This document shows positions 19,960-21,984 of a stretch of DNA of 64,000 bases, in pieces (position 1 is the stretch's first letter; every line of letters begins with the position of its first letter). Under the pieces are notes generated by a model that saw only the letters and a program-made list of their open reading frames with translations, ran no database searches and was not told where the DNA came from. The stretch lies in the NCBI GenBank assembly GCA_003331585.1, contig QOPG01000004.1, positions 1 to 64,000 on the forward strand, read 5' to 3'. A program made the position numbers and the translations under genes. This stretch comes from Gammaproteobacteria bacterium. GTDB lineage: Bacteria; Pseudomonadota; Gammaproteobacteria; Steroidobacterales; Woeseiaceae.

Positions 19960-20916
19960 ATGAGTGATAAGGAAAGTAAATCAATAAGCTTTTTTTCTCG
20001 ATTAAAAAATACTCTTGCTGGAACAAAGGCATCAGTAACAGATAATTTTTTTAATTTCTTGGGTAAAACCTCTATAGATGATGATCTTATTGAAGACATT
20101 GAAGCGCACCTTATCATGTCAGATGTTGGTATTGAAACAACAGATATAATTATTAAGCAACTTAAAAACGAAACAAAGAAAAAAATTTCAGAGATAAAAG
20201 ACCTCAAGAATGTCCTAAAAAATATCATGCTATCTATCCTTGAACCTGTAGATATTAGATTAACCGTCGAAAGTGAGGATAAACCGTTCGTTATTCTCAT
20301 GGTTGGAGTTAATGGTGCCGGTAAAACAACTTCTATTGGAAAATTATCTAGCTCTTTTATATCAAATAATAATTCGGTGTTATTAGCCGCAGGAGATACT
20401 TTCAGAGCAGCGGCTGTTGAACAATTGGAATCTTGGGCGAATAGAAATAATATTGATATTGTCTCTCAGGTCAGCGGCGCTGACCCTGCAGCTGTTTGCT
20501 ATGATGCTTATGATTCTGCAAAGGCAAAAAATATCGATATCCTAATGGTAGATACAGCAGGAAGGCTTCACACACAAAAAGGGCTAATGGATGAACTCGT
20601 TAAAATAAAAAATACTCTCAATAAGCAATCCTTGGATGCACCACATGAAATTCTATTGGTTCTTGATGCCAGTTTAGGTCAAAATGCTCTGATTCAAGCA
20701 GAGAGATTTAACGAGACTCTAGGTGTAACAGGTTTAATCATTACTAAACTTGACGGAAGCGCTAAAGGAGGAATTCTTTTGAGTATTGCCAATCAATTAA
20801 ATATTCCCATTCGTTACATTGGTATAGGTGAAAAAGCTGAAGATATGAAAACATTTGATCGTTTTGAATACGTCGATGCCTTGCTTGATTACCCTAACCC
20901 AAATGAAAGAAATTGA
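19960..20916 (+). CDS. ftsY: Signal recognition particle receptor FtsY
   Basis: FtsY is the membrane-associated SRP receptor GTPase that delivers ribosome-nascent chain complexes to the translocon. The 318-residue protein has only a short N-terminal extension before the NG domain, unlike the long acidic A domain of E. coli FtsY (497 residues). GTPase motifs: VGVNGAGKTTSIGKL (G1), DTFRAAAVEQL, VDTAGRLHTQ (G3), ITKLDGSAKGG (G4) and YIGIGEKAEDM. The ftsE and ftsX genes that normally follow are absent; rpoH comes next after about 200 bases. Confidence 0.97.
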   Translation: MSDKESKSISFFSRLKNTLAGTKASVTDNFFNFLGKTSIDDDLIEDIEAHLIMSDVGIETTDIIIKQLKNETKKKISEIKDLKNVLKNIMLSILEPVDIRLTVESEDKPFVILMVGVNGAGKTTSIGKLSSSFISNNNSVLLAAGDTFRAAAVEQLESWANRNNIDIVSQVSGADPAAVCYDAYDSAKAKNIDILMVDTAGRLHTQKGLMDELVKIKNTLNKQSLDAPHEILLVLDASLGQNALIQAERFNETLGVTGLIITKLDGSAKGGILLSIANQLNIPIRYIGIGEKAEDMKTFDRFEYVDALLDYPNPNERN

Positions 20917-21056
20917 TAATCTATTGCCTTAAGATTTACGCGATTTAACGCAAAAAATCACTAAAATATCGCCAAATTATTAACAATAAAATATATACTA
21001 AATTATTGATTTATATATATTTTATACAAATGTTTTATTATTTTTGCCTGTTTTTA

Positions 21057-21083
21057 TTAGCACTCGTATTAGGAGACTGCTAA
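21057..21083 (+). promoter_or_regulatory. CIRCE-like HrcA operator upstream of rpoH
   Basis: The 27-base element is TTAGCACTC, nine spacer bases, GACTGCTAA. The established CIRCE consensus is TTAGCACTC-N9-GAGTGCTAA, so left arm and spacing are exact and the right arm differs at one base (21077). CIRCE is the binding site of the heat-shock repressor HrcA. It ends 37 bases before the rpoH start, in the probable 5' leader or at the promoter. A TATTAT at 21036-21041 could be the -10 box, but I see no convincing -35. The hrcA gene itself is not in the window. Confidence 0.8.
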
Positions 21084-21120
21084 AATCTATACATTATTAG
21101 GTAAAAATTAATACAAAAAT

Positions 21121-21984
21121 ATGGATACAGTATTACCAAAAGTTAATTATGATTTAATACAGGCAGGACCTGTAGGAAGTCTTGACGCCTATATTCAAGG
21201 TGTAGGAGCTATACCTGTGTTGACCAGAGAGGCAGAACTTGAGCTCGCTAATAAATACAATAATGAAGAAGATTTAAAAGCAGCAAGAGAACTTGTCATG
21301 GCTCATCTTAGGTTTGTAATACATATTGCAAAAGGCTACACAGGCTATGGATTACCATTAGAAGATTTAATCCAAGAAGGAAATGTTGGTCTTATGAAAG
21401 CTGTAAAAAGATTCGATCCTGATTTTAATGTTAGGCTCGTCTCATTTGCAGTGCACTGGATAAGAGCTGAAATCCATGAGTATGTTCTAAAGAATTGGAG
21501 AGTTGTTAAAATTGCAACAACAAAAGCACAAAGAAAACTATTCTTCAATCTCCGTAAACATAAAAAAAGTCTAAGCTGGTTATCTGCAGATGAAACAAAA
21601 GCCGTGGCGGATGATCTTGGAGTATCTGTCCGTGAAGTAAGTGAAATGGAAAAACGATTAAGCTCGCATGATATGACGTTCGATCAAAATGGAGATGACA
21701 ATGATGATAGTCAAAGTTTTACTCCCGCAGCATATTTGCCCAGCCCAGACAGTGATCCGGCAGAGACTGTCGAAAAAGAACAATGGAGAAACTCAACAAT
21801 TGCTAAAATGCAGGAATCTCTGAATCACTTAGACCCTAGGAGTCAAGATATTTTAAATAGCAGATGGCTGTCTGAGAAAAAAGAAACTCTTCATGACCTT
21901 GCAGAAAGATACGGTGTTTCAGCTGAGAGAATAAGACAAATTGAAGTAAATGCAATCAAAAAGTTACGTCTTTCAATGATATAA
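21121..21984 (+). CDS. rpoH: Heat-shock sigma factor RpoH (sigma-32)
   Basis: RpoH directs RNA polymerase to heat-shock promoters. The 287-residue protein (E. coli 284) begins after the usual short N terminus with AYIQGVGAIPVLTREAELELA. The region 2 segment RFVIHIAKGYTGYGLPLEDLIQEGNVGLMKA is intact, as is the RpoH box QRKLFFNLRKHKK that distinguishes it from RpoD and RpoS. The C terminus carries the region 4.2 helix-turn-helix LHDLAERYGVSAERIRQIE. It is separated from ftsY by 204 bases holding a CIRCE-like operator, so repression by HrcA is inferred in addition to the known post-translational control in relatives. Confidence 0.97.
   Translation: MDTVLPKVNYDLIQAGPVGSLDAYIQGVGAIPVLTREAELELANKYNNEEDLKAARELVMAHLRFVIHIAKGYTGYGLPLEDLIQEGNVGLMKAVKRFDPDFNVRLVSFAVHWIRAEIHEYVLKNWRVVKIATTKAQRKLFFNLRKHKKSLSWLSADETKAVADDLGVSVREVSEMEKRLSSHDMTFDQNGDDNDDSQSFTPAAYLPSPDSDPAETVEKEQWRNSTIAKMQESLNHLDPRSQDILNSRWLSEKKETLHDLAERYGVSAERIRQIEVNAIKKLRLSMI

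Follow-up and report, generated by a model that had tools for sequence, protein, structure and literature searches.

A CIRCE Operator Upstream of rpoH

How is rpoH, the gene for sigma-32, controlled in a gammaproteobacterium that also encodes HrcA? The textbook account of sigma-32 control is based on E. coli, an organism without HrcA. In the window (the whole 64 kb stretch of DNA that was analyzed), the original prediction had placed a CIRCE operator, one base off consensus and with the exact nine-base spacing, before rpoH. Our analysis confirmed it, and the locus has the following features.

19960–20916, forward strand: ftsY, the gene upstream of rpoH, given for context only (TIGR00064, 349 bits)
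20917–21056, forward strand: ftsY-rpoH intergenic stretch 5′ of CIRCE, without a sigma-E −35 element
21057–21083, forward strand: CIRCE (HrcA operator), with left arm 21057–21065, spacer 21066–21074 and right arm 21075–21083
21057–21086, forward strand: predicted sigma-70-type promoter on the operator (promoter scan and conservation of T at +3)
21121–21984, forward strand: rpoH, sigma-32, 287 amino acids (TIGR02392, 395 bits against a cut-off of 323; NF005143, 414 bits)

The operator reads TTAGCACTC-GTATTAGGA-GACTGCTAA and is separated from the rpoH ATG (21121) by 37 nt. Its sole departure from the consensus used here, TTAGCACTC-N9-GAGTGCTAA, lies in the right arm, where position 21077 is C instead of G. 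There is no second CIRCE (at most three mismatches) anywhere in the window, and dinucleotide shuffles put the expected number of matches per window at 0.02. The RpoH protein is 85% identical to that of Woeseiaceae bacterium RS417, the nearest named genome, and the source is thus probably a species of the Woeseiaceae with a small genome.

A single HrcA was found in the source genome (1.31 Mb, 81% complete); it scored above the cut-offs of both PF01628 and TIGR00331 (318 bits). Its gene adjoins grpE, and this hrcA-grpE locus has no CIRCE of its own. The search for further operators, which like the search for hrcA had been proposed with the original prediction, found only one other CIRCE in the genome (up to three mismatches). 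It precedes groES and reads TTAGCACTC-N9-GAGTGCCAA. Two CIRCE per genome is also the rule among the relatives, where the sites examined precede groES and rpoH. The rpoH site in the window is the same operator as that of the classical HrcA target, groESL. At groES, CIRCE lies just 3′ of a sigma-32-like promoter (CTTGAAA...CCCCTATTA in the relatives, CTTGAAA...CCTTATTA in this genome) and supplies no −10 element, unlike the rpoH CIRCE, whose right arm would offer one, as described below.

Conservation of the Operator and Co-occurrence with hrcA

Six rpoH loci were recovered from the genus. The arms are identical in all six, the C included, and the nine-base spacer differs; unchanged arms around a varying spacer indicate that the arms are under selection. 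Across the order, CIRCE with at most one mismatch was found in 54 of the 55 rpoH upstream regions read, and the one locus without it belongs to G047, a genome in which both hrcA and CIRCE are missing. Outside the order, named genomes with the site include those of Pseudoalteromonas, Rheinheimera, Alishewanella, Alkalimonas and Kangiella, most of those of Catenovulum and one of those of Cycloclasticus. It was absent at rpoH in the genomes read of Shewanella, Colwellia, Idiomarina, Pseudidiomarina, SAR86, Marinobacter and Pasteurellaceae. With hrcA present and the 27-base site kept before rpoH in close relatives, the original prediction escapes both of the objections that it had raised against itself.

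A sample of the class Gammaproteobacteria was drawn evenly, each family being represented by one genome that is at least 90% complete. CIRCE preceded rpoH at 88 of 97 loci from hrcA-positive genomes versus 5 of 31 from hrcA-negative ones (Fisher p = 8e-15), a comparison in which kinship is controlled by the choice of one genome per family and nothing further, and in which hrcA (or, in the comparisons below, rpoE) may escape detection where assemblies are incomplete. Match scores at rpoH were bimodal, with either 0–3 or at least 6 mismatches, and nine hrcA-positive loci were missing the site. Conservation in the genus, order and class, together with this co-occurrence, makes control of rpoH by HrcA well supported, and such control is probably ancestral. 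The wiring had been thought uncommon, and perhaps a compact solution in a streamlined genome. Neither reading could be kept: CIRCE before rpoH is the norm in HrcA-bearing Gammaproteobacteria, and relatives with genomes of 3–6 Mb carry the same site.

The rpoH CIRCE was kept at five loci (L209, L235, L245, L298 and L289) whose genomes had no detected hrcA. Either hrcA is absent from the assembly in these cases or the arms have been kept for their role in the promoter.

Predicted Promoter Elements That Overlap the Operator

What the original prediction overlooked is that CIRCE shares sequence with the predicted core promoter of rpoH, and that the genus of the window has lost the sigma-E part of this promoter. 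In most rpoE-positive relatives, a sigma-E −35 element (GGAACT) lies 16–17 nt 5′ of CIRCE, and the −10 (TCTAA) spans the left arm and spacer; a sigma-E-type GGAACT-N17-TCTAA is completed by the TC at the end of the left arm together with the three bases that open the spacer (mostly TAA, TCA or TTA). The phasing is fixed. Of the 82 CIRCE sites from rpoE-positive genomes in the class sample, 50 have GAAC at an identical distance (its preceding base being 16 nt 5′ of CIRCE) and 9 have it one base further out; the average for other offsets is 0.3. Altogether, a phased sigma-E −35 was present at 64 of these 82 sites versus none of the 11 from rpoE-negative genomes. Judged by these elements and by the presence of rpoE, the relatives have a predicted sigma-E-dependent rpoH promoter of the E. 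coli P3 type.

The element and the sigma factor have been lost together. In the order, the rpoE-negative genomes G033, G041 and G048 and the genus of the window all lack the sigma-E −35; G042 (82% complete) is the single discordant rpoE-negative genome, and G034 and G055 are exceptions among the rpoE-positive ones. RpoE (TIGR02939) and RseA (PF03872) were found in none of nine genomes of the genus, one of which is 99% complete. In the window, GGAAC is missing from the phased position 16–17 nt before CIRCE, and with both element and rpoE missing, a sigma-E promoter at this locus was ruled out. The genus has lost the sigma-E half of the rpoH promoter and retained CIRCE and the predicted sigma-70-type −10. 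The loss is derived, and is one among several such losses in the order.

That −10 would be formed by the right arm itself. Its TGCTAA, followed by a conserved nnT, gives TGCTAAnnT, which matches the extended sigma-70 −10 (sought as TGnTAnnnT). The third base after CIRCE is T at 72 of 82 rpoH sites in rpoE-positive genomes and 10 of 11 in rpoE-negative ones, compared with 0 of 11 groES sites; the extended −10 pattern is therefore conserved and specific to rpoH sites. All six rpoH loci of the genus carry TGCTAAAAT. A promoter scan of the region returned one match only, composed of TTAGCA (21057–21062), an 18-nt spacer that includes TG (21078–21079) and the −10 TAAAAT (21081–21086). Because shuffled sequences gave more sites than this (2.9 versus 1), the scan by itself proves nothing, and the case for a sigma-70-type −10 rests on conservation. 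On that ground, we infer that rpoH in the window is transcribed from a promoter of this type.

Alternative Explanations

Since promoter elements overlap both arms, the operator could have been kept mainly as core promoter (sigma-E −10 and sigma-70 extended −10), with HrcA regulation secondary or absent. The persistence of the site in five hrcA-negative genomes is in keeping with this idea, but conservation is just as high at arm bases beyond the promoter elements, most families have a complete palindrome, and the site has gone from 26 of the 31 hrcA-negative loci. We regard this explanation as improbable. A chance resemblance to CIRCE, for which nothing speaks but the single mismatch, is scarcely credible given how few matches are expected per window, and was dismissed because the site is kept in the genus, order and class. 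The CIRCE before rpoH in the window is real.

The C at 21077 raises the further possibility that the genus site is a weakened relic with reduced HrcA binding, and that rpoH is constitutive or controlled post-transcriptionally. All genus loci share this non-consensus base, sigma-E control has already gone from the genus, and the affinity of HrcA for the operator may indeed be reduced. However, the remaining 17 arm bases are identical in all six loci, around a diverged spacer. The same base also recurs in distant genomes, at 7 of the 93 class rpoH sites and at groES sites, so it is probably tolerated. A check for an RNA thermosensor, limited to one fold of the early part of the rpoH mRNA, gave a structure that was not notable (z = −1.67). 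A relic seems to us unlikely, and a little more so than an operator kept mainly as core promoter.

A Model for Control of rpoH

We consider it likely that HrcA acts at this site, as predicted, and that the operator represses rpoH transcription and forms part of the rpoH promoter. HrcA bound at 21057–21083 would cover TTAGCA-N18-TAAAAT from the −35 through to the −10 and shut RNA polymerase out of rpoH. In other bacteria, HrcA is inactivated when GroE is titrated by unfolded protein. If the same holds in this organism, heat or unfolded protein would draw GroE off HrcA, HrcA activity would be lost, and groESL and rpoH would be derepressed together. Sigma-32 could then boost groESL, through the sigma-32-like promoter beside the groES CIRCE, and the remaining heat-shock genes.

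The operator of most relatives would also overlie the −10 of the sigma-E promoter, which resembles that of E. coli rpoH; rpoH there may therefore respond both to envelope stress, through sigma-E, and to the chaperonin load of the cytoplasm, through HrcA. In the genus of the window, the sigma-E input would have been lost and the HrcA input kept, with HrcA blocking one sigma-70-type rpoH promoter. We lean, with some reserve, toward the view that the ancestral gammaproteobacterial rpoH promoter was composite. In such a promoter, an HrcA operator laid over the sigma-E −10, and doubling as a sigma-70 extended −10, would sum envelope stress and chaperonin load in one 27-base site; the E. coli sigma-E promoter would be a remnant after the loss of HrcA, and the genus of the window the mirror case after the loss of sigma-E.

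If rpoH is normally under HrcA, sigma-32 would be tied transcriptionally to GroE load in most Gammaproteobacteria, and two classical heat-shock circuits would be stacked rather than alternative. The fusion of operator and promoter would represent a directly testable two-input design, and nature offers single-input versions of it, with sigma-E alone in E. coli and HrcA alone in the genus of the window.

Comparison with Known Systems

The region upstream of E. coli rpoH contains TGAACTT-N16-TCTGA, which we take to be the sigma-E promoter P3. Its elements and spacing are those of the GGAACT-N17-TCTAA that surrounds CIRCE in the relatives. No CIRCE was found upstream of E. coli rpoH, where the best match has seven mismatches. 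E. coli thus has the sigma-E element without CIRCE, whereas the window has CIRCE without the sigma-E element.

In the searchable papers, we found no account of the class-wide CIRCE-rpoH pattern beyond a precedent in Geobacter, nor of the fusion of a CIRCE operator with a promoter. As that search covered the openly searchable papers, CIRCE before rpoH may already be listed for Gammaproteobacteria, for instance in RegPrecise, and the novelty of the HrcA-rpoH wiring itself is uncertain. Later work on RpoH of Geobacter sulfurreducens reportedly exists. For this species, Rodionov et al. (2004; PMC545781) predicted a CIRCE upstream of rpoH, at −51 relative to the start codon. The likeness extends to the presence of HrcA and to a groESL that is also under CIRCE (PMC545781). 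The same paper treats G. sulfurreducens as a deltaproteobacterium and reports CIRCE at its hrcA-grpE-dnaK-dnaJ locus, in contrast to the genome studied here, and it describes no overlap of CIRCE with a sigma-E or sigma-70 element.

The Neighborhood of rpoH

Several minor observations concern the surroundings of the operator. In L080 (uncultured Kangiella), two CIRCE-like sites stand in tandem upstream of rpoH. In the window, positions 20998–21016 carry the stretch TAAATTATTGATTTATA, which is like the TAAnTnATTGTTTTTA that recurs about 50 nt 5′ of the rpoH CIRCE. Similar stretches turn up across much of the family and in some of the order's other families, whether or not the genome has rpoE, and are perhaps another promoter or factor site. 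The gene ftsY lies directly 5′ of rpoH in all six loci of the genus (19960–21121 in the window). In four other members of the family that were examined, an FtsX-like reading frame precedes rpoH where the genus has ftsY, and the genus seems to have lost ftsE and ftsX at this position.
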